The notes under the pieces: model-generated
The model's database searches: none
The model's input: only the letters and a program-made list of their open reading frames with translations
What the model was told of the DNA's origin: nothing
Assembly (NCBI GenBank): GCA_000467715.1
Contig: AJFK01000915.1
Location: 1-40,266, forward strand
Length of the DNA: 40,266 nt
Reading direction: 5' to 3'
Source: Hysterium pulicare CBS 123377
Lineage: Eukaryota; Ascomycota; Dothideomycetes; Hysteriales; Hysteriaceae
Shown: piece after piece, positions 1 through 40,266 of the stretch
Numbering within the stretch: the stretch's first letter is position 1
Layout: each line of letters opens with the position of its first letter
Position numbers and translations under genes: made by a program

Positions 1-340
1 CGGCTTTGCAAACTTGCGCCGAGTGGGTTCTCAATTCAATGTACTGTATCAAATCGCATCATGAGGAGATAGATAGTACTGATCTTCATCACCGTAGTCA
101 GCGCTTATCTAGATTCTATCTTATCTTTATCAGCACTTCCCATTATAACTCATTATGCTGAAAGCAGAGCACATAAGGAGGATCTGGAGTGACTTTATAA
201 GATCTCTCCAACCAGGAATCTAGAGCCTCATCCATACTTGACATTTTCAAACCAGTTCCGCAGACCAAACCATAGGAAATAATTTGGTGTGGTGTTTCTC
301 TAGAAGCGATGAGTCGCGTAGAGTCCGATAGAGGGCTGGG
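1..340. other. 5' flank of the cassette array, no gene seen
   Basis: No supported gene. Around positions 45-100 there is a sequence matching the one at about 665-710 (a TGTATYA..ATCGCATCATGA core followed by TTCATCA). This is probably the tail of an array unit whose promoter lies outside the window. Confidence 0.4.
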
Positions 341-351
341 ATAAGAGAGCC

Positions 352-445
352 TTTATACCTACGGCCGCTAAGGAGAGTTAGCCTCCCCAGTTACCAGAAT
401 CACGTGCACCTGGATATCCCTTTTTGTTTTCCAGCGATATAAAAA
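352..445 (+). promoter_or_regulatory. Array cassette 1
   Basis: TTTATACC box at 352-359 and GATATAAAAA at 436-445. The two bZIP-like sites are degenerate (TTAGCC at 378, TTACCAG at 391). The leader contains CTTCTAAAACCTTCAATG, resembling the sub-repeat sequence near 8380. Confidence 0.5.
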
Positions 446-961
446 CATTTCTTTCGCTTCGAACTATCTTGCTTCTACAGCTTCTAAAACCTTCAATGTT
501 AGAACATACCGAACTACTATGACATGGATCGGAAGAAGTAATAAGGGAAAACGATGTCTCCGCTGACCGTCGAGCCGCGAGCTCTCGGAATTCGGCTTCC
601 AACCATTAACACAGACAAGCTATATGGCTGAGATTGGGAGGATCTCTGGAATCTATCTTCAGCCCTCATATTGTATTACATCGCATCATGATAGTGATGT
701 TCATCATGAAGAAGATTTTAAGCTTCGTATCTCTCTCCACCCATCGCCGGATACTGTGATAGTAGTTGGAAGCCCCGAGCACATCCGACGAGTCTGCCGG
801 AGGTCATGAAAAAGCAGAGAACACGCCATTTGGAAGTTTCATTCATACATGACACAGCCGCAACAACTCGCCGGCCAGAGCATGGCACCGCTTCCGTGTA
901 GTTGTTGTTCCTGGAACTGCAAATTGGCGTAGTCTGAGAAAGTCAAGCTGGAAGAGGAGAG

Positions 962-1077
962 TTTTATAACAGTGACAGTGAAGTAGAGAGCAAGCTGTAG
1001 GATGACTTATTAAGCTATTGGGGTAGGTCATGTGAAGCGTCATGCTAGCTATCTTTCTTCCTCGAACATATAAAAAA
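962..1077 (+). promoter_or_regulatory. Array cassette 2
   Basis: TTTTATAAC at 962-970 and TATAAAAAA at 1069-1077. Half-sites are degenerate (TTATTAA at 1006, TAGGTCA at 1024). Downstream, near 1195, there is a copy of the ATGTCTTTGCTGGTG-like motif and at 1395-1408 a perfect GTGATG/CATCAC inverted repeat. Confidence 0.5.
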
Positions 1078-1730
1078 GTTTTCTCTGCTGCAATATTTTC
1101 AGAATCTACACTACTTGGCAAATGAGGTCCATATGAGCACTCATATCTCGCCGAGATACTGGACGATGGATTGGAATCCCAGAGCAAAAGATCGCATGTG
1201 TCTTTGCTAGTGTTTGGGAGTCCTTGGAATTCCAAAACTCTCAGATATCCCTGTACGTGTGTGTCTATTTGGACTTCCGTATCATCCAATTTGAAGCTAG
1301 TAGAGACACGTTAGTTGCCGCGGAGGGTTTAATGGAGCGGCATTTGGAGACGAACTGCGGAGCTCACTGAAGCGGGATTGAATCTGAGGTGGTGGTGATG
1401 AACATCACTAGTTCTTTGTGCCATGATTCGAAATTTTTCTAAGGTATCGTTCTCACTCCACACCACAGCTTTGGTCCGCGAACGACTGCCATAACTCCCA
1501 TTTGGCTTCCTTATGTCATCTGCTCTATGCCCTACCGATGCAGGGCCATCGCAGTGAGTGAAGAGTTTGTTTTAGATCCACCAACCATTCTAGTCTTGAG
1601 ATAAGCTATAGTCCCAGAGCCAAGGCCATATGTTAATAACCCATTCGGTGTTTGATAGCCCAATCAAAGCCATCACATCCACGAAAAAATGGGAAAAGTG
1701 TAGAAAATTGGGTTAGACGAAGGAGTAGAC

Positions 1731-1854
1731 TTATTTATACCACTCTCTGTGAACGTTTTCCCGAAGTCGAAGATTACTCATCTTCTTATTACTTGTCATA
1801 TCCTTCGTCCATCGCCATTCTGCTAACAATTGTTTCTTAATTTGATATTAAAAC
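1731..1854 (+). promoter_or_regulatory. Array cassette 3
   Basis: TTATTTATAC at 1731-1740, TTACTCA at 1774-1780, a degenerate partner (TTACTTG at 1789, 15 bp on), and a weakened TATA box GATATTAAAAC at 1844-1854, further downstream than usual. Confidence 0.45.
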
Positions 1855-2591
1855 ATCTCTCAGTCATAACCTCTTTCCCTTCCACTACTGGCCAAACACT
1901 CTCTTCACAGAGATTCTAAAAGTCTACAGCAATCAACCCGTCCGCAGCATACACAATATGGACTAGAAGTAAAAGATGTAGCAACCTATGTATCCTATAG
2001 TACGTTGGCTCGATACGCATATATGGTGTGGATTAGATCGGAGTCTTTCATCTGCAATATCTTGGCCGAAAATTGACATGTCGCTGTGGGAGGCGACCTG
2101 TCTGCGGAGGAGGCGTGAGATGGCCAGGAGAGCACCTCAGGTCAAAGGCTGCGCAAGGCACTGGCGGAATTTCGAAATGGTATTGATCATGATAATCCTT
2201 GCAAGGCCTCTGCAGCATCTGTAATGCTGGAGAAGACCATTGGCAATTTGCAGGATTTTTGGACTGCTCCTCGTTTGCCATAGCCGTTACCCCAAGACTT
2301 CGCCAAATACGCGCCTCTTTGCTCCACCGACGCTCCACAGTCACGATTTCGTGTCCATCTTTCGACTATTCCCCAAGCCATTTCCAGGGGTTGAGAGCTA
2401 GATTTGATCCAGATAGCCCCATGTCAGTTGCCCAGGGATAATTCCTAATCGAAAAGAAGCCCATATCAAAGTGACCTCGATAATCTGCGTGAGACATGAA
2501 ATCGTTCATTTCACATGATAACGTAGGAGAGCTACCCATGACAGGCCTTGGAAAGTGACGAAAAAAGAAGCTGGACGGAGGACTAGAGGGC

Positions 2592-2700
2592 TTATATATT
2601 GTAATCCGGTGAGACTTCCTGGGTGAAGGCTTACTCATCGCCGTTCTCACAGTTATTTTACTTGCATATCTTCCTTCTGGGTTGCTCATCGATATAAAAA
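2592..2700 (+). promoter_or_regulatory. Array cassette 4
   Basis: TTATATATT at 2592-2600, a perfect TTACTCA at 2631-2637, a lost second site, and a strong GATATAAAAA at 2691-2700. No ATGTCTCTG-type start was found after this cassette. Confidence 0.5.
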
Positions 2701-3375
2701 TACCTCTTTCCTGAGATTCCCGACCCACCATTTTCAAGGCCATATCCTGCGGAGTGTCCAAACCCTTATGGCTTCTACATTTTATGGATCAATAGCCTAC
2801 TTGAAACGAATGGCTCTGTTGCCTTTTGGTATCCCAGGGGGAAATATCAATAGGTAGAAAGAACCGATGCAATTTCTGTGCGATTGATATACTTATGAAG
2901 AAACGAAAGATGGGTTTGGGGGTTAGGGGGTTTGAGTGCGGAAGGGAGACATTGGCAATGTCATTGATAAGTTTTGAAAGAATGGTGACGAGGTTGAGTA
3001 TTATCCTCCTATGTGATTTCGTGTACATCATTATCCGAAGCTGATGACGATCACCACCAATAGCTAAATACTTCCGCCGCTCGCTGCTCAACGAAAACCA
3101 AATCGACTGACCCGCTTCCGGTTTCTCCAATCCATAAAACAAGTTTTGTCGTCTAGGCGTACATTCTTCGCGAAAAAGAATACTCCTGATCCAGGAAAGA
3201 ATCCACAAGCCATGGGGAATGCGGCTTGCTGGTGCGAAAAAAGGCTCACACAGCGTATCAATATCCCGCGCTTTCGGGGCAAGACATGGGGATTCTGCCT
3301 CTTATGCTATGGCAAGATTCACAATGAAAGCTGTAATGTGAAAGAGAAAATAAGTCAAACTGAGAATTGGGGTAC

Positions 3376-3468
3376 TAATATATCTGGGGCAGAAGAAGAT
3401 TCCGCTTACTCAACCCGAATTAGTCATCACAGTTCCAACAACAGTAACTCGTGCCCTGCAATATAAGA
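3376..3468 (+). promoter_or_regulatory. Array cassette 5
   Basis: TAATATATC at 3376-3384, TTACTCA at 3406-3412, TTAGTCA at 3420-3426 (both perfect, 14 bp apart), TATAAGA at 3462-3468. The ATGTCTTTGCTGG motif follows at 3551 and a TTGATGATG tail near 3710. Confidence 0.6.
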
Positions 3469-3962
3469 TCTTTTACGGTCTACTTCCTTCGTTATTGCCA
3501 GGACGAATCATTTCCACGTAGATCCCAAATCAACTTTGCAGCAAAAGCTTATGTCTTTGCTGGTGTTTGGAGTCCCCAGAAACCCTCAATGAAAACATGG
3601 CTTGTATTGATTTAGGCCTTACGGAGTACTTCGGAAGCAGAATTGTCTCTCCAATAGTGACGATTGGTATCACGCAACTATGATCATATTCCTTAGTAGT
3701 TTGATGCTGTTGATGATGCTTTCTAGAACTGACGAGCTAACACAGCCTCTCCAAGCAACCCGAACTGGCTCCTATTCCAGCTCAGTGAAGACCCCACAGG
3801 CCGTGATCGTTTGGGAGCCGAATAATGATCTCCTCCCATCATTGAGGTCCGATCTAATTTTTGGCAAGACATGGCTCTTCTTCTCATTGGTATAGCAGGG
3901 AGGCTACCCACGGAGGAACTTGCAAAATGAAGAAGAAGCGAGTTGGATGGAGAAAGGGTAGG

Positions 3963-4061
3963 TTATATAATTAGATTGGTACAAATCGTAGCTTACTACA
4001 GCATCATTTGTCAGCACTATTCTCCGACTTCAGCCGATGCCCCTGCCCTAATATATAAATA
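3963..4061 (+). promoter_or_regulatory. Array cassette 6
   Basis: TTATATAATT at 3963-3972, TTACTAC at 3993, TTTGTCA at 4007 (14 bp on), TATATAAATA at 4052-4061. The preceding GAAGAAGAAGCGAGTTGGA is one of the clearest copies of the upstream purine block. A 28-codon ORF starts at 4179. Confidence 0.55.
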
Positions 4062-4178
4062 TGTTTTCAAATTGCCCTCCAATTTCAATACCTTGGCTCG
4101 GACTATCGCCTCAGCTTGAAACAAAAAACAAGTTCGAAATACAGTCCATGGGTTCACTATAAAAGAAAGCGGCAGCTG

Positions 4179-4265
4179 ATGTCTTTGCCATTTGTAAGAC
4201 GCCGAAGCTTTCAAAACGGAATTTCCAGACAAGCAATGCGTTTGAGCTGGGGCTTTGAGGGGTAG
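4179..4265 (+). CDS. Possible 28-aa micro-ORF of array unit 6 (MSLP start)
   Basis: It starts MSLPFVRRRSF and has exactly the length of the ORF at 7680, which starts MSLPAVERP. It lies about 120 bp after the TATA-type box of its cassette, where a first ORF would be expected. The shared start motif and position are seen in sequence. That it is translated is inference. Beyond the first few residues similarity is weak, so it may equally be part of a non-coding repeat. Confidence 0.25.
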   Translation: MSLPFVRRRSFQNGISRQAMRLSWGFEG

Positions 4266-4660
4266 GATGGAAGGGATGTGGTATTTGATCGTTATAGTAA
4301 TAACCAGTATCTCGTTGCTGGATACCATCTTTCGAATTCCTCGAATGCTGATCATCTCCAGGGTCAATTTACTTCGCACTGGATAACATTTAGCAAGACC
4401 GACGACCATATCAACTTGGTCACGGAGATCGATCTGATCGGTGCTATGACGGCGTGCTTCGCGCTCAGGTGCAATGGCGGGAGCCTCAATCCTATCCAAC
4501 ATCGCATAAGTTGAGCTTGCTATAGGTGAGATATAGAAGATTGTAGGGCATATACTTCCGAGATAAATTTCTGCTTGAAGTTTGGATTTGTATGCCTGAG
4601 CCTGCAACGTACGGCCGATGAGGCCGTCTACCGTAGTCTATTGGTATTCTATGAAAAGTT

Positions 4661-4894
4661 CTAGTACATTTGGAAAGGAGAGCCGTTGAAACGACCGCCT
4701 CCACTCCAGCTTACAGTGGCTCCACCGCTCGTGGCTTTCGCACGGCGCAGCTCAAATATCTCGCCGTAGAAGCTGCTTCCTTCAACCGCGGAAACGTGGA
4801 TATATGTACCCGAAGTATGAGACGCTGCCTGTGTTTGACGGGCAATGCCAAGACAGGGCAAGACCTCATCGTGCTTCCTTGAGGGCCCTAGCAT
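4661..4894 (-). CDS. Small unrecognised ORF downstream of the oxidoreductase gene
   Basis: 77 codons, same strand as the FAD gene and beginning 40 bp after its stop. The last ~35 residues (AKATSGGATVSWSGGGRFN region) are Gly/Ser/Thr-rich and look more protein-like than the rest. The first half is less convincing. It could be a 3' exon of a short separate gene, a relic, or chance. No family is recognised. Confidence 0.22.
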   Translation of the reverse strand: MLGPSRKHDEVLPCLGIARQTQAASHTSGTYIHVSAVEGSSFYGEIFELRRAKATSGGATVSWSGGGRFNGSPFQMY

Positions 4895-4933
4895 ATAGAT
4901 AAAGCGCTGCCAAGCGTGCTATCTATACCAATG

Positions 4934-6148
4934 TCATCGAGCCTCTTCTTCGAGCCACTGGGGAGACACTCTCTTGACAAACTTCATAAACTTAAACCAG
5001 CCCACGGCACTTTCAACGTTCCCCTCAGGATCGGTAACGCGTTCTGGGAAAGCAATGCCAGCGCCGTAGAGTCCTTTCAGATACTCGCGACTCCCTTGGC
5101 CCTTGTAGAACTTCCCAGTCAACGGGTCGAAGTCTGGTTGGGCTTCCCTTCCATCGACATCGATCCGTGGCAGCTCGTTGACATCGTACCCGATCGCGCT
5201 GATGATGTGGGTGCAATCTTTCAGCTCAGCATCGTAGATCTGTTTCTCACTCCTCGTGTCTTCCTTCAGGTTCACCCGGTGCAGGTTCGGCGGCAGGTGT
5301 TCCGCTTCTAGCACTTCCTTCGCCCAATCTGCCGCCATACCCTTCAGGCCGGTATTGTCGTAGAGGATCCAGCCATCTTTGTAGATGGCGTAGAGAAGTG
5401 GCGAGCGATAATAATTGACGATTGAGACGTCATCAAAGTCAAATAGATTCTTCAGTGCGAGTATGGCAGAGTGGGACGAGCCGATGACGCCGACTTTTGA
5501 TCCTGCTGGCACTAATTTGCGAAGAACTGAAGGTGCGAGGGCTGTGTCAAGATCCAAAGGTGTAATATGAGGATAGTCGTCGAACATAGGATTGGCCCTT
5601 GGATGTGAGCCAGTTGCAAGCACCACTCGGTCTGCGTTGAAGTCTTCGTGAGGAACACCCCACGTGTTCTTCTGCTTCGAGAGATGATTGACGGTGGAGG
5701 TGACACTTGTGACCCTCGGGTCGTTCCTCAAGCCATCTGAGAGCAGCCTGGCTACATCGATGGCATCCGCCAGCTGACAAGTCTTGTCCGGATCCAAAGA
5801 CTTTAGCTTCTCAAATGCATTGCCCCTTGGGGCACGGTCGATGATCTCGGAGAAGACGTTTGTGCCAGTCGCCCACTGCACAAATAGGCCGGCCTTAGTG
5901 TTGCTTGGGACCTCTCGGTATTTCTCATTGATGCGTCCAGCGTTGAAAGCACTGTCGAAAATGCAGATCTTGGACAATCCTTGATCCAGGAGATTCGACG
6001 CGCATGTCAAACCACCTGGACCGGCTCCGATGACGATAGCATCGAAGTGCTTGCCAGTCTCATGGGATGCTATATATCTAGCATGATTAGATCTTGATAG
6101 CAGCTTCGGACCGATATTGTAGACCGAAGCGCGCCTGATAGTTCGCAT
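4934..6148 (-). CDS. FAD-dependent pyridine-nucleotide oxidoreductase
   Basis: An intronless 404-residue ORF. Residues 1-33 are basic and lack acidic residues until about 30, so a mitochondrial presequence is possible. Residues 36-46 form a Rossmann dinucleotide-binding start (AIVIGAGPGG). VVLATGSHP at 175-183 is the usual ATG motif of two-dinucleotide-binding-domain flavoproteins. KVGVIGSSHSA at 218-228 is a second Rossmann loop, probably for NAD(P)H. GLYGAGIAFP at 359-368 is the C-terminal FAD-contacting segment. There is no CxxxxC redox-active disulfide at the glutathione-reductase position, so this is likelier a monooxygenase-like or L-lysine 6-monooxygenase-like family member than a disulfide reductase. 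Substrate unknown. The start chosen is the first ATG of the ORF. The gene lies in the cassette array but runs on the opposite strand. Confidence 0.88.
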   Translation of the reverse strand: MRTIRRASVYNIGPKLLSRSNHARYIASHETGKHFDAIVIGAGPGGLTCASNLLDQGLSKICIFDSAFNAGRINEKYREVPSNTKAGLFVQWATGTNVFSEIIDRAPRGNAFEKLKSLDPDKTCQLADAIDVARLLSDGLRNDPRVTSVTSTVNHLSKQKNTWGVPHEDFNADRVVLATGSHPRANPMFDDYPHITPLDLDTALAPSVLRKLVPAGSKVGVIGSSHSAILALKNLFDFDDVSIVNYYRSPLLYAIYKDGWILYDNTGLKGMAADWAKEVLEAEHLPPNLHRVNLKEDTRSEKQIYDAELKDCTHIISAIGYDVNELPRIDVDGREAQPDFDPLTGKFYKGQGSREYLKGLYGAGIAFPERVTDPEGNVESAVGWFKFMKFVKRVSPQWLEEEAR

Positions 6149-6378
6149 AGTGAGGTGCTGTGATGGGTCTAAGCTACAAGGGTTCGAGAGGTGAAAATAT
6201 TGCCAAGACTGGCCTTAGTTTTGCATCCGGCTAAACATCGGGCCGATGACCAATTACTTCGTGTCCATCCCTTCTTCTACTTGATGATTCCACGTCTTGG
6301 TCAATCATCTCCGCACGGAATTATAACATGATGCCTCGCCCTATCCCATAGTTTCAGCGCACAGCTAAGGAGGACATC

Positions 6379-6483
6379 ATGGCCCTGCCTACCATTGACG
6401 TGCAGGTTCTAAAACAAACTCTCAAGTCCATTATGTGTCGGCTTGAACGTTGTAAGTTTGAAGCGACATTGGGCCTAAAGTAG
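6379..6483 (+). CDS. Possible 34-aa micro-ORF, orphan array unit between cassettes 6 and 7
   Basis: It starts ATGGCCCTGCC, and 27 bases on has TTCTAAAACAA followed by TGTGTCGGCTTG. Both blocks recur in the same frame in the ORF at 8363, the peptides aligning as LKQ..L.S...CRL..C with a spacing difference of one whole codon. No cassette precedes it: the upstream 230 bp is the 5' flank of the FAD gene, so its promoter was probably displaced. Translation is not established. Confidence 0.28.
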   Translation: MALPTIDVQVLKQTLKSIMCRLERCKFEATLGLK

Positions 6484-6861
6484 TGTTATTGATATTGATT
6501 TTTCATGTAATACCGTGTAGCATCATCAATTCCTATAAGGATGTTTTGTTGAAGGCATTACCACTTCCGCCAGTTAACACTCCCGAAGCCAAACTTTCCG
6601 ATCCGATCCGCCGTTCTTCATCCCCAGCAAAACTTCCGCAGGCCATGGATGCCATCTTTGAGAGCGTTACGGTCTTTGAAACAGCACCATAGAGCTATCT
6701 CGTGTCTTGATTCTGCTCCGAAGAAACCCAAAGACCACATGATTGTGTTATTTGCCCCCAATTGACTAACATGTTACTCTTTATCCTGGTCTAGTATTGC
6801 AGACATTCATGGAAGGAGGTGTTAAGTGAAAAATAGAGTCGGAGTAGACAAGAGGGTGAGG

Positions 6862-6954
6862 TTTATATATCTCGAACGAAAGAAGTTCAATTACTTGCTA
6901 CTGGGTTAGTAATCACCAAGCTCACGACCATTCTTCCTTGGCTCCAATATAAGA
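6862..6954 (+). promoter_or_regulatory. Array cassette 7
   Basis: TTTATATATCTC at 6862-6873, TTACTTG at 6891, TTAGTAA at 6906-6912 (15 bp on), TATAAGA at 6948-6954, then a CT-rich leader. First cassette on the far side of the FAD gene. Confidence 0.6.
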
Positions 6955-7495
6955 ACTTTTTCACCATAAATTCTGCTTTCTCTCCTACTGCTTTGAATAT
7001 CAGCTCCAAAAGAGACCTCCAGGTTCAAGAAAGGATTACATATCATGTATTTCCAGATGTTTGGGACAGCCTAGGCTTTAAACCCTTGATGTGACAGTTT
7101 TGATGTTGCGCGCGGAAGAGTTTAGAAGCAATGTTGAAGCTCATTAGAGATGCTCTCTTTCTGAATGCTGTACATATCCTCCTTCATTACTTAAAGTGGA
7201 TGATCCTCCTCAGAATCTACCATACTTCACTCCGCACAACCTCTGCCGTGAGCCTTTCCCAATGTAGGTCTCGTAAGCCAGACCGAGAATCGATGAGAGA
7301 GTTTGGCCGCTCAGTATCGTAGTCAGGTCTAGTTGTATGTTCCGGAACCAAAGAACCCAACATCAGGAGAGCGATCAGGCGTAGATGGCCACGACATACA
7401 CCGTAGTCCATATTTAGTATGACATGGGAGTATTATAAACGGACCCTGCATTGTAAAGAAGAAAGATTGCGAGTCCGCTCGATGGAATGGAAGAA

Positions 7496-7593
7496 TTTAT
7501 ATTCCAGCAAGAAGTTCGACCGAACACCTTACCCACCCTCATGTTAGTCAACACCACTCTCACCAAGATCCATCTTGCCTACTGGTATAAGAG
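7496..7593 (+). promoter_or_regulatory. Array cassette 8
   Basis: TTTATATTCC at 7496-7505, TTACCCA at 7529-7535, perfect TTAGTCA at 7544-7550 (15 bp on), TATAAGAG at 7586-7593. A 28-codon ORF starts at 7680. Confidence 0.6.
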
Positions 7594-7679
7594 CATCTCC
7601 TTATCCAACCGTCCTATTCTCCACCATACCTTGGACAATCCCTTTGGGAGGATACTCCAAATGCACTCATAAACATTCT

Positions 7680-7766
7680 ATGTCTCTGCCGGCGGTTGAG
7701 CGGCCCATAATTCGAAACCGGAAGTTTCAACGTTGTTATGTGGGCGGTTTGGATTTTGCAGAGTGA
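7680..7766 (+). CDS. Possible 28-aa micro-ORF of array unit 8 (MSLP start)
   Basis: It begins ATGTCTCTGCCGGCGG, the best match to the start motif shared by many units, and lies about 95 bp after its TATA-type box. It is the same length as the ORF at 4179. There is no signal peptide or recognised domain. Either a short peptide or a structured non-coding repeat would fit. Confidence 0.27.
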   Translation: MSLPAVERPIIRNRKFQRCYVGGLDFAE

Positions 7767-8175
7767 GTCGGAAGGCTATGTAACAGTGGAATCCAATATA
7801 ATAGTGATTAGTAGACTATTGTGTATCGTCCCTCAGTATTTTCAAATGCCAATGACGTTCATCTTCAGTCCTAGCTACTAGTACGAGTTTCCCTTTAGCG
7901 GTCACCTCCCAATCCAATCCGACTTCACCCCTCTTTCAACAGACGTCCCACAACCCATGTTCAATTTGGTTATCCATTTTCGTCTTCATCTAGCCCGTAT
8001 TCGCAAAGTTAACTGTAAAACCGTACTGATCCACAAAAGCACATGAATCCGGACGTTAGTGAAATTCTGGAAGTGGACATGTGGCTTGACAAGCCTAATT
8101 GATGGTAAGGATGCAAGACCGGAAGAAACTTGCGCAGTAAAGAAGAAGAACGAACTGGATAGAGAAGAATGGACA

Positions 8176-8276
8176 TTTTATATCTAAGACAGTGGCAGCA
8201 AAGGTTTGAGGCTTACTAATCTTTGCGTTAGTGATTTGCATTCCCACGACGACTTCCTTATGCCGCGATATAAAAG
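8176..8276 (+). promoter_or_regulatory. Array cassette 9
   Basis: TTTTATATC at 8176-8184, TTACTAA at 8213-8219, TTAGTGA at 8228-8234 (15 bp on), GATATAAAAG at 8267-8276, followed by CTTCTTTCTTTCTACTTCT, a typical fungal CT-rich initiation region. Confidence 0.62.
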
Positions 8277-8362
8277 CATCCACTTGCTCCGAATCTTCTT
8301 TCTTTCTACTTCTGGATAGTCCCCTCCGCGTGAAATCTAGAACAGACTTGTGGGATTCTGCA

Positions 8363-8479
8363 ATGTCCCTGGCGGCAGTTGGACTTCTAAAACAATGTCT
8401 TTGGTCAACCTATGCGTGTCGGCTTGGACTTTGCGGAATAAAATGGAAGCGATCCGGATCTAGAAGAAACAGCGGATAG
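8363..8479 (+). CDS. Possible 38-aa micro-ORF of array unit 9 (MSL start)
   Basis: It starts ATGTCCCTGGCGGCAG about 87 bp after the cassette's TATA box. The peptide is basic with four Cys/Trp-containing clusters and ends in an Arg/Ser-rich tail. It aligns in frame with the ORF at 6379 over LKQ and CRL blocks. That in-frame agreement is the main evidence for coding. The ORF is short and could be fortuitous. Confidence 0.28.
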   Translation: MSLAAVGLLKQCLWSTYACRLGLCGIKWKRSGSRRNSG

Positions 8480-8835
8480 TACTTCACTGTTGGATATTGT
8501 CATCGTTCATGGTTTTCAACTGCTAATGATTATCATCATCATACTTCGCACCGCATAACCTCTGCGCAGGGTCCTAACCTGCCTATCCTAATCCCCCCCG
8601 CCCGACGAAGACCCTGCAAGCCCATCCAGCTGTTCTGGCGGAGATCATGACCTCTCGTCTAGCAGCATTGCGAAGTGATCTGGCTGTGTTATCCACAAAC
8701 CACACATAGGTAGTTCCCGAGCACGATTCTGGAAGCGGACATCAGTGGTTACGATCAACTATATTTGATTGAAAGCGGCAAGGCACGAAAGTAGCCGCAG
8801 TGTAAAGAGAAGCAAGTTACACCAAGGATAGGGAC

Positions 8836-8925
8836 TTATATATCCACGACGGCGGAAGTCCAGCTTACTCAACCTGTGTTAGTCAGCTACTCTCACCATG
8901 AATCTCCCATGCCATCATATAAAAA
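8836..8925 (+). promoter_or_regulatory. Array cassette 10
   Basis: TTATATATCC at 8836-8845, perfect TTACTCA at 8865-8871 and TTAGTCA at 8879-8885 (14 bp apart), TATAAAAA at 8918-8925. With cassette 11 this is the closest pair: both share GGGACTTATATATCCACGAC and extended downstream similarity. ATGTCTGGC follows at 9012. Confidence 0.65.
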
Positions 8926-9590
8926 CACTCCCTCTTGCCGTGAATTTCTCTTCTCACCACTACACCTGAGACCTAGTCACACAGCTGTGGTCTCTGGTGG
9001 GGATGCAAACAATGTCTGGCAGCCAACGCATGGCTTTGCCGTGCGCTGGGACATCTGAAAGCCTAGACTTGACGATGTCCTTTTCCATTGGTGTCTGCTG
9101 GATCGAAAAAGTTGTGATAACAACGAGATGGCTCTGCTGGGTGTGGGATCTCCTGGAACTCTAGAACGAATTTACAACGACCAGTTGATGGCTTGGCTCG
9201 AGAGAGCGTCCAAAATTCCGGTAAATGGGATTTCGATGTTGCCTCTGAGGAAGTCATGAATGATAAGGAGGGGAGTGAAGGGTACTCGGTTGCTACCTTT
9301 CGTCGTTCAGAATTCTCTGGTGTTGATGATAAACATCACCAGTCCTCACGACAGGTACGTGCCCCACCACCCAACCAACCACTCTCCCAATGAAGGTCCT
9401 CCAACCATGCGCTGCTCCAGCTCCATTCTGTACGCAGCGGTAGATTGTTGATGCTATTGCTACGAAGAGCAGACCAATTCTGGGAGCAGACATTATTCTC
9501 TTTCTTTCCACTTCTGGTATGGGAGAGAAGATTCAAAGTTGGAGCTTGTAAAGTCAAGAGCAGGAGCAAGTTAGAGGAAGGAATAGGGAC

Positions 9591-9690
9591 TTATATATCC
9601 ACGACAGCAGAAGCTCGATCGTTGAGCTTGCTCACCCCCGCATGAGTCAGCACCACGCTCACCCCGCGTTTCTATGCCTTGATATAAAAC
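9591..9690 (+). promoter_or_regulatory. Array cassette 11
   Basis: TTATATATCC at 9591-9600, TTGCTCA at 9628-9634, TGAGTCA (perfect AP-1/Gcn4-type core) at 9643-9649, GATATAAAAC at 9681-9690. ATGTCTCTG follows at 9812. The segments at 9128-9262 and 9913-10050 are visibly homologous, showing that the duplicated unit reaches beyond the promoter. Confidence 0.65.
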
Positions 9691-10428
9691 ACCCCTTCTT
9701 GCCACGATCTCTTCTTCTTCCACCACTTGCTAGGAACTCTAGTCCATTTCAGAATATAGCTTCAAGCGCGAAACATGGCATAGTTTTAAAAAACCACGCA
9801 GTATTCTTTCAATGTCTCTGTGCGGGATTCGGGATTCAAAAGCTAAACTCATTGGGCTGACATTTAATGGTGTTGGGTAAAGTGTTTCCAAAAAAGCAAC
9901 AGGCTATTGCGCTATGGCTCTGCTGGTCCTAGAATGCCAGAACGAACCTGATCCACCCCGAATGGCTCCGGCTGGGAGACTGTTCCGAAACTTTGGTGAT
10001 GGAGATCCATGTTATCTCGGAGGAAGTCCTGAAGGATAGGAAGGATAGGAAGGGTATGGAGGTGAGCTGGGTATTAGAAGTTGGGTTATGTTGGTAGTGG
10101 CGTTCACTTTATCGTGATAGTGTTGACAATTGTCGGTAGATGTGAACGATGTTGCTTAGCTTTCCCCTAAGCGTGAGGAGAGCTCCGCTCTCTCCCAGCA
10201 CCGTAATGTTCCTTCGAAGTTGATCATGATCGCGATTCCCACCAGCATCGTGAAAGGGGTTCGGTGTCGTTGTTGATTCCGATCCAAAGAAATCCACATC
10301 AGCTTTTCGTCGGTCTTTATTTGGCCCGGCCATGTGGAGGCTATCTTAGCCTATATGGTAAAGATAAAAGCCATAATAGAGCTTGCAGTGTGAAGAAAAC
10401 GAAATAAGTTAGACAGCAGATGGGAGGG

Positions 10429-10515
10429 TTTATATCTCCACGACATTAGAAGCCCGCCTTACTCACCCTCACATTAGTCACCACCACTCCCTCCTTTTCC
10501 TCTGCGATATAAAAA
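10429..10515 (+). promoter_or_regulatory. Array cassette 12
   Basis: TTTATATCTCC at 10429-10439, TTACTCA at 10459-10465, TTAGTCA at 10474-10480 (15 bp on), TATAAAAA at 10508-10515. It heads the unit with the largest sub-repeat block. Confidence 0.65.
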
Positions 10516-10628
10516 TACCTCATGCCTCGAACTCTTCCCTTTCCACCACAAATTGAAGATACAAGTCTCCTCAAAACAAACCATCGGACCCGTGGCATGG
10601 CATCAGAAACAAATACTCTTTCAAGATC

Positions 10629-11220
10629 ATGTCTTCGCTCCAGCTCCGGGCTCCAAAACCCAACCTCAGTGAGATGATCTTTGTGGTTGGCTGGGACTGC
10701 TTTAAACGCATCCAACGCCAGAGCCATGTCTTCGCTCCAGCTCCAGACCGCAAAAGCCTAAAACAGCCGCGAAAAGTATCCATGTTGTTGGTTGGTATCG
10801 CCTCGAAAACATCGAAGAGCAGGCCCATGTTCTCCAGCTCTGGGCCTCAAAAGCCAAAGACAGACGATTGAGATTTTCATGGTATTGGCGGGAGTTGTCT
10901 CTGAAAAAAATTAGAGCCGAGTAATCCATGTCTCTGCGGCGGGGTCGGTTGTCCAAAATCCAATTTGTATCGGTGGTGGTTTGGAGTTGCCTCTAAATCA
11001 TCTATGAGCTAGAAACCGATGTCTCTGTGGTGGGATCCGGGCATCCAAAAAGGCAAACCGCGTCAAGTGATGGAGTTGGCTGGAGCTGGTTTCGAAAGCA
11101 AGGAAATCTTCAGGAACCATGTTGGGCTGGGAGAAAGTCTTGAATTGGATGAAATCGAAGCCACGCAGTTATTCTGCTGGGTACCGCGCCCACGCATGTT
11201 TTGAAGCAGGAAACCGCCAG
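10629..11220 (+). repeat. Minisatellite of about 100-bp sub-repeats, seven copies
   Basis: Diverged copies each begin with an ATGT(C/T) anchor: ATG at 10629, 10726, 10827, 10928, 11019, 11119 and 11196, so spacings are 97, 101, 101, 91, 100 and 77 bp. Each copy then has a G/T-rich block, a (T)CCAAAA-like block and a GTTGG..GG block (GTTGGCTGGGACTGC, GTTGGTTGGTATCGC, GTTGGCTGGAGCTGG). Copy-to-copy reading frame is not kept and several copies contain stops, so this block as a whole is not an obvious protein repeat. The same anchor opens sub-repeats in the neighbouring units (9012, 9128, 9812, 9913). Confidence 0.6.
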
Positions 11221-11234
11221 TTTCGCCAAAGAAA

Positions 11235-11525
11235 ATGAGTGAATGCGGAACAAACGCCAGGCACGACGCTCACACCAGCGGGGTTCCAAACACCAGCACC
11301 TCAGACGCCAAACCATGTGGTAGTCTATACGATGACCCACTCGAAAACGAGCTTTTGTTCCAGCTGGGAGACACAGACCAGCAGCAGGTCCAGCAGGAGA
11401 TTTCGGCATTGGACGTATTTCCGGACGACGATACCTTCGGTGGATTACTGAGGCATAAGGGGCAGGTGGACAGGAGCGAGAATACCTCGGAATCAGGGGG
11501 GTATGAGCGATGGTTGATTGTTTGA
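11235..11525 (+). CDS. Possible 96-aa acidic protein at the end of array unit 12
   Basis: A 96-codon ORF with A at -3 of its ATG. The second half is acidic and Gln-rich (DTDQQQVQQEISALDVFPDD). No domain or signal peptide is recognised. It lies after the last sub-repeat and before a GATGATGA-rich tail. Since it is more than 700 bp from the cassette TATA box and preceded by many ATGs, expression is doubtful. Confidence 0.25.
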   Translation: MSECGTNARHDAHTSGVPNTSTSDAKPCGSLYDDPLENELLFQLGDTDQQQVQQEISALDVFPDDDTFGGLLRHKGQVDRSENTSESGGYERWLIV

Positions 11526-11964
11526 AGCCGGGAATGAAGAAGTAGTGTGATGATGACGATGATGAATCGATGATGAGCCTTATCATCGTCTGCAGATAAC
11601 CTTCTATCCCTTATATCGGTGAATAGAATTGGGAAATAGTGCTACTGCTACTTACCACCCACTCCAAGATTTAAAGTCATTCTTCAGACATCTGAACTTC
11701 GAATATCGTAGTTCCACACAAATGCCCCGAAGCCTCCAACCACATTCTGTAGTGCTCGGTAGGATTCAGGTTCCCAAATTCACGTACTCCATATACGGCA
11801 TCTCAATCATTTGCTTAATCCACACAAAGAGAACATGGTGCCGAAACGACGAGGCTGCAGACCGGACATGCGTCGCATGTCCGAGTGATTCTACAACCAC
11901 GTCGAAGTCCGATGAGGGTCTTGAAAAGTGCAGAAAAAGCAGTTGGACAGAGTGAGGAAGGGGA

Positions 11965-12053
11965 TTTTATATCCAGTCCCGAAGAGGTCCGAAGCTTACT
12001 CACTCTTACGTTAGTCAGCTCATCTCCGCCAAAATCCCTTATCAGCCTATAAG
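11965..12053 (+). promoter_or_regulatory. Array cassette 13
   Basis: TTTTATATCC at 11965-11974, perfect TTACTCA at 11996-12002 and TTAGTCA at 12011-12017 (15 bp on), TATAAG at 12048-12053. The distance from cassette 12 (1.54 kb) is about twice the usual period, so one cassette may be lost between them. Confidence 0.62.
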
Positions 12054-12125
12054 TTCTCACACTTCCTTACTCCAAAATGGACTTCCTTCCTCACCCTACC
12101 TAAGCTCCAAAGCTAGCCGCATTTT

Positions 12126-12362
12126 GTGATGCCGTTCGAAGTCGAGGACATGTCTCCCAGCTCTTGCTCAGAACTTCACTGCTACAGAGTTCATGTGCGG
12201 AAAGTCTCTGCCATCTCTCGTGTCCTCGCTGATAAGGAGAAGAGCGGGGCTAGAGGCATTAGACTTAGCCAGCGCAGACCCCTTGATGTGGTGGCGGCGC
12301 TGTCTGCCGGATATCGGAAGGTGGAAAAAGATGATGCGGGGAGTTTTAGGGGCTGCGATTGA
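12126..12362 (+). CDS. Possible 78-aa basic protein of array unit 13
   Basis: The longest ORF after cassette 13, starting about 75 bp from the TATA-type box. It has a Lys/Arg-rich centre. A MSPSS start, in frame at residue 8, resembles the MSL starts of other units. No family recognised. A GTTGATGATGATTAGC tail follows at 12389. Confidence 0.25.
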   Translation: MMPFEVEDMSPSSCSELHCYRVHVRKVSAISRVLADKEKSGARGIRLSQRRPLDVVAALSAGYRKVEKDDAGSFRGCD

Positions 12363-12750
12363 AGAGCCCAGCTGAGGAGTTGGATTAGATGTTGATGATG
12401 ATTAGCAGCCTGAAGTGATAGTGCTTGTCAGATAATGTCTAGAGTGTCTCAGCTAATTAAGCAAAGCATAGCTTCCGTCACTCCCGCACCCAGAATTTGC
12501 GAAGGCTACCAAGCCAGATCACATATGTCCGCCTCGTTTTTGGCGATTGACCCACAACCATCAAGTGGACTCAGACCTGCTTCCTGATCACACATAATAG
12601 ATGCCTTCTATAATGAAACTATCGGTTCATTCCGCTCAAGTCCCCAGCTCATCGCAACGTCGAGATCAGTTGTCGTTAACAAATTCAGGCTCAAGCGGAG
12701 AAGAGGTTGATGATGTAGAGAAACCAAGATAACCCGGAAGAAAGAGAGGT

Positions 12751-12889
12751 ATTTATATTGAGAGAGCTTGAGAATATACGCAGAGCAGTCAGATGACTTA
12801 TCGTCAGGTGCGCGAGAGTTCGGAGTCGTCTAGCGGTGGGCGTGAAATCACGTAGGCCGACTTGAAATCTACCTCCAGCGTCTATAAAA
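12751..12889 (+). promoter_or_regulatory. Array cassette 14 (most degenerate)
   Basis: ATTTATATTG at 12751-12760 after a GAAGAAAGAGAGG block, TGACTTA at 12794-12800, TATAAAA at 12883-12889. The box-to-box distance is longer than in other cassettes. It marks the right edge of the array. Confidence 0.4.
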
Positions 12890-15173
12890 GCTTCCAGTAA
12901 ACCCGTAAGTGGACCACCTCAAGCTGGTTGTAGGGCATGGAACCTGGGGGACTGATTTCATAAAAGGTCCGTCCGCACAACTATGGTAATTTCTTCCAGA
13001 AACTCGGAGCCTTCCCAATTCATGGCGCGAAGAGAAAAGCATTTGATGTTCCTTGTTGGTAGTTCCGAACGGTGAAATGTTTCTAGACAACAGAAGAGCG
13101 CCTCTTCATGCTCGTGGAGGAAGAGTGGAGTTGACTTGACGCCCAGGTATTCGGATTTGAAGGTAAGTAGAGGAGTGAGCGACAGTAGAATGAGTAAATG
13201 GTGATCGTTAGTAGTTTAGAAAGATGGGTTTCATGACATTTTAACGCAAGGTTGATATCGAGTACTGCCCAATACTAGACATGGGTATTATCGATGGTGG
13301 CGAGCTTCTCGGTCTACTTGTTCAATGCAATCATTCGACTTCGATATGCTCTCACAGCTGAGCTCTGCAAGAAATGGAGATGCCTTGCTGATAACCTATG
13401 GTCCTATCAATAAACTTTTAGGCCTTCGAAAATGTTAACTTGCTGTGGATGCGAACGAGAACAACCACCCATCGGGCCGATTAAATGTCTCTACGCTTTC
13501 CCTACCGAAACTGCGGGGAGACTTCGAACTCTACGTCTGTATCTCAAGTGTTAACGATATCGATATTCTTTTCACGATCCTCAATCCCCTGCGATCACCG
13601 CTCAGCCTCGCTTGCTTACCGAATCTCTCCATCTTCCTCGCTTGTCCCCCTCACCTCCTCAACTTCGTCGCTTGTCGTCCCGAATCTTCCTATCATCCGC
13701 ACGTCCGGTTCTACTTGCCATGACCTCCCATCCCCTGCATTCGCAAATATTGAATGACGCATCTGGCGTATCTCCCATGGAAGATGTCGTAATCCAAGCT
13801 CCACCTAGCCCAGGGAACCCAAGGACCAGTTCCCATCCCGCCGCGCGGATCCTAATTCCAAATTATCGTTCCCGGGGGATGCTGGATTGGGATGAGCTTT
13901 GCCTATTCTGCTGATGAGGTCCCAAGATGGAGATGGAAAGCGAGCTGGATCTGTCTGTAGACGTAAAAGTGGATGTGAGTCTCCACCGTGCTGCACGCCT
14001 GCCAATGTTTCGAAACGCATCTGCTGGCATCGGCGACGCCGTATGGCTTCATCAATTTCCAAGGTTCATGCGAGGCGTGTACTCGCCCACTGCGCCGAGA
14101 ATCTTGGGCGAGTAAGCGGAGTAAATGAGTCGTGATAGAGCATTGCTCTACTGCAGGAACGCGACACGATAGCGCTGACGTTAGGACGAAATGGCGTTCT
14201 CGTGATCAAGAAAGAAGGCATAAGGCGTCTTCTAAGCCTTCCATGGATGGGACCCTCCAAGGCCACCAGCTCCAGCCTTACAGACCCGAGCCCACGTCAA
14301 CCCCTAAACTTAACGCATGAAGATTAATCTTAACTCACGATTCATTAATGTCCGGTACGTCGATGACCCGGACCACAGTGGCTTGATCTTCGTCAGCATT
14401 GCGATGTCGGGTCGTGGAGTCAAGCTTCGATCGACGGAAGGGTTGGGCTTTAATTTGACGTGTGAATAAAGTTAGGACGTGGGAAGCTGAGGAACATGGG
14501 TTCGCATAAAAATAGACGATCGAAGGGGATTGGTGGCGTTGCAGGTACTTGAGATGATGAAGGGTGTGATGCTGTTTCAAAGTTGCGACGGCGACTGAGT
14601 CATGTCGCATGCTTAAATGCACCTCGCGTTTGAGGCGACTGTTTTGGGAACGACAGGAATTGGCAAAGGACAAGAGGGGAAGATTGTTCAAGCGTACGAT
14701 ATGGAAGTCTATGGTCGAAAGTTTAGTGGCAAGTGCATCGGTCAAAGCATCAGAAATGGCTGAGGCGTGGAGTCACAAAGCTGAAAAGCGAGGCGAGTGA
14801 AGAGGAGGTTTGCGCCAAGAAATCTATTCCGATTCTAGGTATCTACCACGTGCGTTCCGAAGAAGCGCCGTATTCTTTCCATCGAAGCCTATCGTACAAG
14901 TCCACCTTAAGAGATTGAGAACTGAGGAAATAAGTATGGAAAAGGTCTAACTCCCCTACACGCCATGACCGGGACTAGCGACCTGAATAGCCCAATGTCT
15001 CCTCGGCCAGTTCAGAATGAGATACAAGAAGTGTGAATGAGTGTAAGAAATGAAAATATCCCAACAAAGGTGGAAATAAGAAAAGTTCGGTCCAATCATA
15101 GCATGATCAAAATCAGTGGTACCCGATCTGTATAAATTTTGAATAGATGAAATATAGAGGAAAAGGTCGAAAT
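12890..15173. other. Spacer between the cassette array and the first SANT gene
   Basis: No well-supported gene. The 13560-13720 stretch is CT-rich with short internal repeats (CTCGCTTG / CGTCGCTTG), like a promoter or 5' leader. ORFs on the - strand at 14335-14745 and the + strand at 14609-14800 have no recognisable features. The last ~200 bp should contain the 3' untranslated region of the SANT gene. Confidence 0.4.
13720..13914 (+). CDS. Possible 64-aa ORF after a CT-rich leader
   Basis: The ATG follows a long CT-rich stretch, as many fungal starts do. The peptide is Pro/Ser-rich (VIQAPPSPGNPRTS) and ends WDELCLFC. Another open frame (13927-14115) follows closely. The two could be exons of one gene, but no clean splice pair was found. 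No family recognised. Confidence 0.2.
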   Translation: MTSHPLHSQILNDASGVSPMEDVVIQAPPSPGNPRTSSHPAARILIPNYRSRGMLDWDELCLFC

Positions 15174-22717: not shown

Positions 22718-22939
22718 GTGCAAGAACAAGCGGGAGAAGAACAAATACCATCCTCAAACGTCGACTCTACTCAACATGTCCTCCAGCATGGCTTGCCGTT
22801 CCAGAGCCCCTTCCTGCAGCCACCGCATCCTCATCTTCAAACACACGTGCATGGCGGCCACCATTCTCTCGTCCACCAAGTCACAAGTATCGAGGCCCAT
22901 CCCAGTCTACATCAATCGCACTTGTTGCGCCATTCACAG

Positions 22940-23793
22940 ATGCAACAACACTCTCCATCTTCTCCCTACGGCCCGGGCTCTCATATCGACTACGGCCAGC
23001 CTCCACCGGGAAGCCGAAAGCGCAGTCGGCACGAGGATTTACAGCAGCTGGATCTGCAAGGACTCCAAGACGTTCACGGCCAGTCCTCCGGAGACGTCCA
23101 AGTGGAACTAACTCCCGGCGGCCATCATACTCAGCCACAGGGGCTTCTTCACTATCAAGCTCCAGCTCCCCCTCAACAAGCTGCGCGCTATCATCACCAC
23201 CGCCCTCCGAACCAGCAGCATCCCAATAAGATGCCGCGCCTCGGCGAAGCAACTTCTCCTACTCATCATACTGGACCTCCCAGTGTGGTAGGGCAGGAGG
23301 GGATGCCACCGCCAGCTCCGCGACCGCGTGGGCCGAAGCTCAAATTCACTCCCGAAGACGACACGCTACTCGTCGATCTCAAAGAGAAGAAGAACCTAAC
23401 TTGGAAACAAATTGCCGACTTCTTCCCCGGGCGAAGTTCCGGTACGCTGCAGGTGCGATACTGTACGAAGTTGAAGGCAAAGACGACAGTGTGGACTGAT
23501 GAAATGGTAAGTGTGTATGCGCGCTCAACTTTGAGACGCGAGACGTTTAGTCGCCTCGGACGTGCTAACCAGGATTGGATAAGCAGGTACAAAAGCTTCG
23601 CAACGCCATGCAGGAGTACGAGAACGATCGTTGGCGCATTATCTCCTCAAAAGTAGGCTCTGGGTTTTCTCCGGCTGCGTGCAGAGACAAAGCTGAGGAA
23701 CTGGAAGTGGAAGCCGAGGTTGCTGAGGAGGGCGGTTACACGCAGTCGCAAATTGCGGGAAGTTCGAGCGATCCTGCCCAGTCCTTTCAATGA
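22940..23793 (+). CDS. Two-SANT/Myb-domain protein with His/Gln-rich N-terminus
   Basis: Exons 22940-23506 and 23587-23793. The intron is 80 bp with GTAAGT and GCAG ends, and the join reads VWTDEM-VQKLRNAMQEY. From the first in-frame ATG (22940) the product is 257 aa. The frame stays open back to 22658 without an ATG and codes a His/Gln/Pro-rich stretch of natural appearance, so the true start probably lies in an upstream exon. Counting from 22940, residues 132-180 (KFTPEDDTLLVDLKEKKN, LTWKQIADFFPGRSSGTLQV) are a clear first SANT unit. Residues 184 to about 230 (VWTDEMVQKLRNAMQEYEND, RWRIISSKV) are the second. KRSRHED and low-complexity sequence precede them. It is a likely paralogue of the 18718-19713 gene by domain layout, and probably nuclear. 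Confidence 0.8.
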
Positions 23794-35563: not shown

Positions 35564-36924
35564 TCATTGATTACTTGTGCTAGCACTATGCTTTTCACAT
35601 GGTTTCTCTGAGCTCTTCATACCGAAAACTTTAGAGGCCACCCTCACAGCAGTTCTACCACTTCCAAACGGAGACGGTATCGGTATGCCCAACAACATGG
35701 TAGTCGCGAAAGGAAAGATGACTTGCAGTGCACCGAATAGAAACCTACAGCTACCGCTAATTTTCCGCACTGATGTCTTCCCCGACGTCGATAGCTCAAC
35801 TGACCGCGAGAGCTCAGCTATTTTATTTTCTAGTTTTTCGCGCTCGTCCACTCTGATTTTGGCTTCGTTAGCCCTTACTAGAGCTACCGCTTGATCGAAA
35901 TTGAGTTCGCCCACCTTCGCTTGCTTTTCAATCTCCAATTCCATGGCGCGAAGCCGAGCCTCGTAGTCATTTTCCATCCTTCTTTTCTCTGCTCTTCGAT
36001 CATAACGCAGCTGCTCCTGCTGCCGCTGCACCTTGTTAATTTCCCTATCCAATCTTTCCTGTTGTTTCTCAAGGATGTCCTTCATTTCCTTGTCATGGTC
36101 CTTGATGGCATCTTCTAGCTCCTGCTGCACCTTCTCGAGTTCTTCTTTGTGCTTCTTTGCCAGGCGCATAAGTTCTTCATTCACTACTTGACCAGCTGCG
36201 GTGTCGATTAAAGATTTGTCTTCCTCGACCAGTTCACGTTGAATTCGCAAGATAACGGGAGACTGTTTGATGAGAATAGAGATAAGCTCTAATGCTGATC
36301 CTCGATCCTGTAAGCGTCCCATGGTGGACCCCCGGGCGAGCATCTCTCCCCAAAATTCAGGCGTAGTGCGGAGTTCGTCCTCGCGTCTCGCGGCAACCTG
36401 GCTGTTGACCTCTGACCAGAATGTGGTTGCCAAAATGACGTTCTTCAATGGTTCTGGTCCACAGAGTTGACGGAACATCTTCAGATTCCGCAGAGCTGAC
36501 CCCTCCATACGGACGTTGACGATGCTGTGGAGATATATTATCCCATGGAGCTTTGTGTTGCCTTCATATGTCTCCTTTAGCCAGGTTGCGATGCTCTGAA
36601 GCACATCAGTTTCTGATTTATGGGTATCATTGAATCCGGGAGTATCGATCAAGTTAACGTTGTATCCATTGAAGTGAAATGTATAGCCTCGGACGTCAGA
36701 TGTGCCTGTACCAAACTGCCGTGTCAATATCTATTGCTGAGTGATGGTTCGTTGAAACACTCACACGACTGGAGATCGTGGCCAATTTCAATGTCCTGGT
36801 TCCCACTCGCCGATTGGATGAACGAGCTCTTACCAGCACCAGTCACTCCCATTACCGCGATGAACGCCCATGGAGCTCCAGGCACAGGGTCGTAACTAAA
36901 TGTCTCCTCTGGAATTGAAGCCAT
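35564..36924 (-). CDS. AIG1/IMAP-like GTPase with coiled coil and C-terminal membrane anchor, 433 aa
   Basis: Exons 36924-36765 and 36705-35564. The intron is 59 bp with GTGAGT and TACAG ends. This acceptor was chosen because the join gives GHDLQSC-TSDVRGYTF, with the switch-I Thr (T55) in the family context; the nearer CAG acceptor breaks the frame. G1 is GVTGAGKSS (26-34) and G3 is DTPGF (74-78). The usual NKxD is replaced by ATTFW at about 146-150, as often in fungal members. Residues 227-356 are a long, highly charged coiled coil (EELMRLAKKHKEELEKVQQE, then EKQQERLDREINKVQ). Residues 374-396 are hydrophobic, a likely membrane anchor, followed by a basic tail. Probably a GTP-dependent self-assembling protein on a membrane. 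Its biological role is unknown. The next gene upstream is on the same strand. Confidence 0.87.
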
Positions 36925-40239: not shown

Positions 40240-40266
40240 GGGGGGGGGGGGGGGGGGGGGGGGGGG
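40240..40266. other. 27-base G run at the end of the window
   Basis: Immediately after the codons for ATEAG the sequence becomes pure G to the last base. It interrupts a well-conserved Hsp70 segment and is most simply a no-signal G artefact of two-colour sequencing or a bad contig end. Confidence 0.8.

Follow-up and report, generated by a model that had tools for sequence, protein, structure and literature searches.

A tandem array of putative divergent promoters in Hysterium pulicare

What does a promoter-like cassette do when it recurs in tandem among units that share no long coding frame? The question arises from one end of contig AJFK01000915.1 (hereafter C550) of Hysterium pulicare CBS 123377 (GCA_000467715.1), which was analyzed over its entire length of 40,266 bp (the window) within an assembly of 37.2 Mb in 596 contigs, in which an intron-containing GAPDH gene was judged to be of ascomycete character. 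A sequence-only reading had proposed an array of cassettes there (u1 to u14, each with two TATA boxes, TATA1 and TATA2), taken as at least 14 copies of a one-way promoter of singular form, and the existence of the tandem array was confirmed. Judged by its sequence, the cassette is most plausibly a divergent promoter, and the locus may comprise very short genes or transcripts clustered in divergent pairs, a tentative reading to which we assign a probability of about 0.45.

Outward-facing TATA boxes and start-like flanks

TATA1 is a minus-strand TATAAA or TATATAA in 14/14 units (TATATTA in u5); the same motifs occur there on the plus strand in 1/14 (u6 only), and the TATATAT at TATA1 of u4, u7, u10, and u11 can be read in both directions. 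TATA2 is oriented plus, and the TATA pair of each unit therefore faces outward, with box starts 74–126 bp apart (74–101 bp in 12 of the 14). The one-way reading was accordingly withdrawn when TATA1 proved on re-checking to be a minus-strand TATA box. Between the boxes, 11/14 units carry central sites that we take to be AP-1/YAP-like (bZIP-type) sites or E-boxes (CACGTG); TTACTCA and TTAGTCA are both present in four units, and u5 carries an exact CTTACTCA-TTAGTCA.

Start-like features were present on both flanks. The pyrimidine share of the 45 nt past the TATA box is 0.67 on the plus side and 0.73 on the minus side, compared with a background of 0.50, and 0 of 20,000 random draws reached either value. 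ATG(T/G)C lies 88–130 nt after TATA2 in 10/14 units on the plus side (mean 2.35 and maximum 6 in further equal windows) and at the same distance from the TATA box in 11/14 units on the minus side (mean 1.57, maximum 3); all 11 minus-side copies fall at 94–116 nt, the maximum elsewhere being 2. The plus-side start block of u5 (3551..3586, plus strand) is an example, the plus-side ATGs of other units being at 554, 2810, 4179, 7680, 8363, 9030, 9812, 10629, and 12150; on the minus side, an example is the start block and 66-amino acid (aa) open reading frame (ORF) of u11 (9293..9493, minus strand), and the other ATGs, at a distance of 95–113 nt from that strand's TATA box, belong to u1, u3, u4, u5, u6, u8, u9, u10, u12, and u13. 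The fixed distance of the start on both sides suggests translation. Around the midpoint between units, TGATGAT-type palindromes, such as that in the u10–u11 interval (9298..9356), lie at 0.44–0.60 of the span between facing TATA boxes in 8/8 intervals measured, of which four were clearly recovered blind, one was recovered by 0.1 bit, and three were placed by the full model (leave-one-out recovery, 5/11 copies, one by 0.1 bit).

Under the proposed mechanism, a bZIP-type or E-box-binding factor would occupy the 74–126 bp between the two outward TATA boxes, and transcription would begin in the pyrimidine-rich stretch on either side. Each transcript would reach an ATG ∼100 nt from its TATA box, with Ser or Ala as the usual second residue, such that each cassette would drive two very short, fast-evolving genes lying back to back; the arms of neighboring cassettes would meet at the palindrome, which possibly marks 3′ ends.

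Extent of the array and similar modules elsewhere

The copies are ordered in one orientation by sequence, as had been claimed; the claimed number stands in part, since 11/14 cassettes are well supported, the case for u1 is weak, and that for u2 and u14 depends on inspection by eye and outward TATA boxes. A profile built from u3–u13 (R1) matched all of u3–u13 and the TATA2 portion of u1 (15.2 bits), on the plus strand only, with no minus-strand match and no match to u2 or u14. When each of these 11 units was left out in turn, nine exceeded the best plus-strand nhmmer match in 40 dinucleotide-shuffled copies of the first 13.3 kb, and u3 and u6 were not recovered. The full 11-unit profile gave 12.5 bits for u1, 2.4 for u2, and −0.7 for u14 against a shuffled maximum of 6.2, placing u2 and u14 at noise level here as with R1.

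The weak cassette u1 spans 340..454 (minus TATA 357, plus TATA 438, with CACGTG between), and the two placed by eye span 952..1092 (u2; 968, 1069) and 12739..12900 (u14; 12757, 12883), with positions given in the same order and all cassettes on the plus strand. Those not recovered on leaving one out are u3 (1715..1870; minus TATA 1739, TATT box 1846; R1 34 bits) and u6 (3945..4076; 3969, 4052; R1 50.2 bits). The recovered units, with leave-one-out scores, are u4 (2573..2717; 2598, 2693; 20.2 bits), u5 (3359..3484; TATA-like 3382, 3462; 26.5 bits), u7 (6846..6968; 6869, 6948; 34.8 bits), u8 (7481..7607; 7501, 7586; 33.8 bits), u9 (8157..8293; 8182, 8269; 37.4 bits), u10 (8825..8941; 8842, 8918; 47.3 bits), u11 (9573..9709; 9597, 9683; 49.7 bits), u12 (10411..10532; 10434, 10508; 46.2 bits), and u13 (11951..12075; 11971, 12048; 40.8 bits). 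The tandem copies, about a dozen, seem to be old.

From u1 to u14, the steps between units are 615, 763, 861, 784, 590, 2897, 636, 679, 659, 755, 837, 1537, and 787 bp, 11 of the 13 falling within 590–861 bp, in agreement with the spacing first reported (mostly 590–860 bp). The 1537-bp unit, u12, is stretched by five copies of the plus-side ATG block, 91–101 bp apart (10628..11117, plus strand; repeat families D4, D6, and D8), of which 4/5 were recovered when left out. TATAAAA occurs nine times on the plus strand and three times on the minus strand of the array and on neither strand at 13.6–40.3 kb; the looser TATA[AT]A occurs 18 (plus) and 16 (minus) times in the array versus 3 and 4 in that outer region. 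A match of 23 nt at 87% identity between 42–64 and 669–691 could be due to chance or could reflect one more unit at the edge of the contig.

The array was at first read as a single locus of its kind, a view withdrawn when looser patterns turned up modules with outward TATA boxes on other contigs, some 600–900 bp apart. Early strict searches could not show absence, because they recovered the array itself only in part (4/14, 4, and 2 units, the query stretch, or none); close DNA copies of the array, such as a transposon would leave, were not detected by a search that missed even sister units, and diverged modules do occur elsewhere. Defined by motif as outward TATA boxes with both sides at least 62% pyrimidine, divergent modules number 10 in this array, and at least one was found in 7/14 other loci examined: three in C58 (in 17.9 kb), two each in C140, C434, C13, and C102, and one each in C18 and C117, the pairs in C13 and C102 being 885 and 598 bp apart. 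None was found in 112 kb of controls (eight random 5-kb stretches, 15 motif-fetched 3-kb loci, and the remainder of C550). The seven loci without a module by motif include C74, despite its symmetry by eye; there, at L071 (∼8283–8375), CACGTG and TTACTCA are enclosed by a near-symmetric pair of outward TATA boxes. R1 matched near full length in C13 (22.5 bits), C74 (18.8 bits, at L071), and C18 (17.4 bits), and partially in C140 (14.1 bits), L013 (20.2 bits), and L021 (13.6 bits), with no match in the eight random 5-kb stretches.

Three loose patterns gave 123 matches versus 103 in reversed controls, 19 versus 9 (4/19 in this array), and 156 versus 100, many of the matches listed for the last being AT-rich; among matches listed, those of ordinary composition include neighbors, judged by eye, 694 bp (C31), 598 bp (C102), and 656 bp (C117) apart. 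As the other loci were chosen by pattern, it follows that modules exist elsewhere, not how many there are. Such modules point to a dispersed, clustered family. In C58, L052 and L053 (27.5–45.4 kb) hold TATAAAA seven times on the plus strand and eight times on the minus strand in 17.9 kb, near the density of the array, and this stretch, with several outward pairs, is perhaps a second cluster of mixed orientation.

Conservation, products, and rival explanations

Promoters and bodies were compared across u3–u13 (11/14 units, 55 unit pairs). In fixed windows, where ∼3 pairs are expected by chance, pairs above the 95th percentile of the null numbered 52/55 for the promoter, 27 for the upstream stretch, 10 for the leader, 7 for the body, and 1 for the tail. 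Free local alignment with shuffles detected similarity in 49/55 promoter, 17/55 upstream, and 27/55 body pairs. The promoter is thus the best-kept part, and the bodies are also homologous; the slower decay of promoters put forward by the sequence-only reading was borne out, whereas its view that most intervening DNA lies beyond easy alignment was not. The promoter similarity is inflated, because units were found and anchored through their promoters. Blind recovery succeeded for 8/11 upstream stretches, for 12/17 plus-side ATG cores (many by a narrow margin, 5 of the 17 being u12 sub-repeats), and for 0/12 copies of a second body core. Selection on the promoters would account for this pattern, and conversion limited to the promoters would give the same picture. 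The indices of repeat-induced point mutation in the array resemble those of its neighbors.

Two results favor coding: 14/18 plus-side copies lack a stop in the first 20 codons, compared with 43.6% of array positions equally open (u3 and u12c excluded, u2 read from GTG), and first-core ORFs run slightly longer (median 25 codons versus 14 in other ATG ORFs; one-sided p = 0.034, with a wrong start used for u3). Stops in the three plus-side frames number 6, 15, and 11, the copies having their first codons in common. As first proposed, no long coding frame is common to the units, and no conserved reading frame after the start was found in the protein-coding family test. Frame comparison of the bodies was inconsistent, the best block (u10/u11, 44 nt) having 10 mismatches divided 5, 2, and 3 among codon positions 1, 2, and 3. 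ORFs of at least 60 aa are ∼twofold above shuffles on both strands, at scattered places, and Pfam returned no match in the nine array ORFs scanned, an oxidoreductase-like gene aside. Minus-side likenesses noted by eye (the starts of u9/u10/u11; a short motif in u4/u7/u8/u12) were unsupported by the frame test. In composition, one 96-aa ORF from the u12 tail (11235–11525, plus strand) looks closer to a protein than the others do.

Several observations weigh against divergent pairs of short genes. Protein similarity from the minus-side ATG is 18.7 in its own frame versus 19.3 and 19.1 in the others, and from the plus-side ATG 18.4 versus 19.6 and 19.0, with frame +1 outscoring the ATG frame in amino-acid similarity on the plus side. 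ORFs from the start ATGs span 4–80 aa, the u12 sub-repeat spacings are not multiples of three, and the ATG(T/G)C pattern itself forces a second codon for Ser or Ala. A known central site was not found in u2 or u14, and the profile of one half-cassette did not match the other half significantly, so the two halves are alike in plan and not in sequence. Modules are enriched in the other loci by choice, since these were selected for cassette-like patterns.

The unconserved frames would also fit relics, in which a divergent promoter and the 5′ ends of its two genes were duplicated in tandem and to dispersed sites and have since lost their function, a reading that we consider rather unlikely. The edge units u1, u2, and u14 are indeed the most decayed and u10–u12 the most alike; however, most units retain their TATA boxes and pyrimidine tracts and the position of the ATG on both sides, whereas similarity can no longer be detected in about half of the body pairs. 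Somewhat less probable again is a non-coding output, in which neighboring arms would be transcribed convergently and overlap, with non-coding or double-stranded RNA feeding silencing. Each interval has facing promoters at both ends and no conserved frame, and such an output needs no long ORF, but it would not explain the fixed spacing of the ATG on either side; moreover, Rfam and tRNA searches gave no match for the array and no RNA family, and the 15 core folds had no shared structure and were ordinary except in u2. The presumed AP-1/YAP-like and E-box sites, together with the oxidoreductase-like gene inside the array (4934–6148), could instead suggest that the array regulates such neighbors in cis or as a decoy for factors, which we consider improbable, as decoys need no outward TATA boxes, pyrimidine tracts, or ATG blocks.

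Very short genes or transcripts in divergent pairs might also form two-way minigene clusters genome-wide, keeping the switch and both start codons while the products vary and so generating micropeptides or short RNAs; this wider proposal is doubtful. Overall, the earlier interpretation was supported in part: slower promoter decay and the lack of a long shared frame stand, whereas one-way promoters, bodies mostly beyond easy alignment, and confinement to a single locus do not.

Known systems and other features of the window

In paired fungal genes, divergent (bidirectional) promoters have common central sites, outward TATA boxes, and two starts, all of which the array resembles, but it differs in its dozen or so tandem repeats without recognizable genes. 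Nematode 21U-RNA minigenes are likewise many small units in which the promoter is conserved and the product is not; they belong to another kingdom, use another motif, and are one-way. Duplicated spacer promoters have been reported in ribosomal intergenic spacers (PMC1215480), and these resemble the array as tandem promoter duplications without long ORFs; they differ in being one-way, served by RNA polymerase I, and linked to ribosomal DNA, whereas the array is best read as two-way and the window contains no rRNA match (5.8S was not found in the assembly search). Among the literature matches listed, none describes such an array in the excerpts shown. If the promoters fire, these loci would allow selection on switches and start sites, as opposed to products, to be tested in nature and would yield short fungal genes that annotation based on ORF length overlooks; if they are silent, the loci would show how duplications of divergent promoters decay.

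Within the array, the FAD/NAD(P)-oxidoreductase-like gene (4934..6148, minus strand; 404 aa) matches Pfam Pyr_redox_2 at 33.5 bits (cut-off 26.1), with no PDB sequence match to its protein at E 0.001. It adjoins u6b (6372..6480, plus strand), a unit body without a recognizable promoter that was aligned with the cores; u6b scored 8.6 bits in a model that contains it (shuffled maximum 8.3), was unrecovered when left out, and had no R1 match. Elsewhere in the window, a GTPase-like protein with weak AIG1 similarity under the Pfam cut-off is encoded at 35564–36727 (minus strand), the contig terminates in a run of 27 G (40240–40266), possibly an artefact, and a Myb/SANT-domain protein (Pfam) is encoded at 22718–23656 (plus strand).

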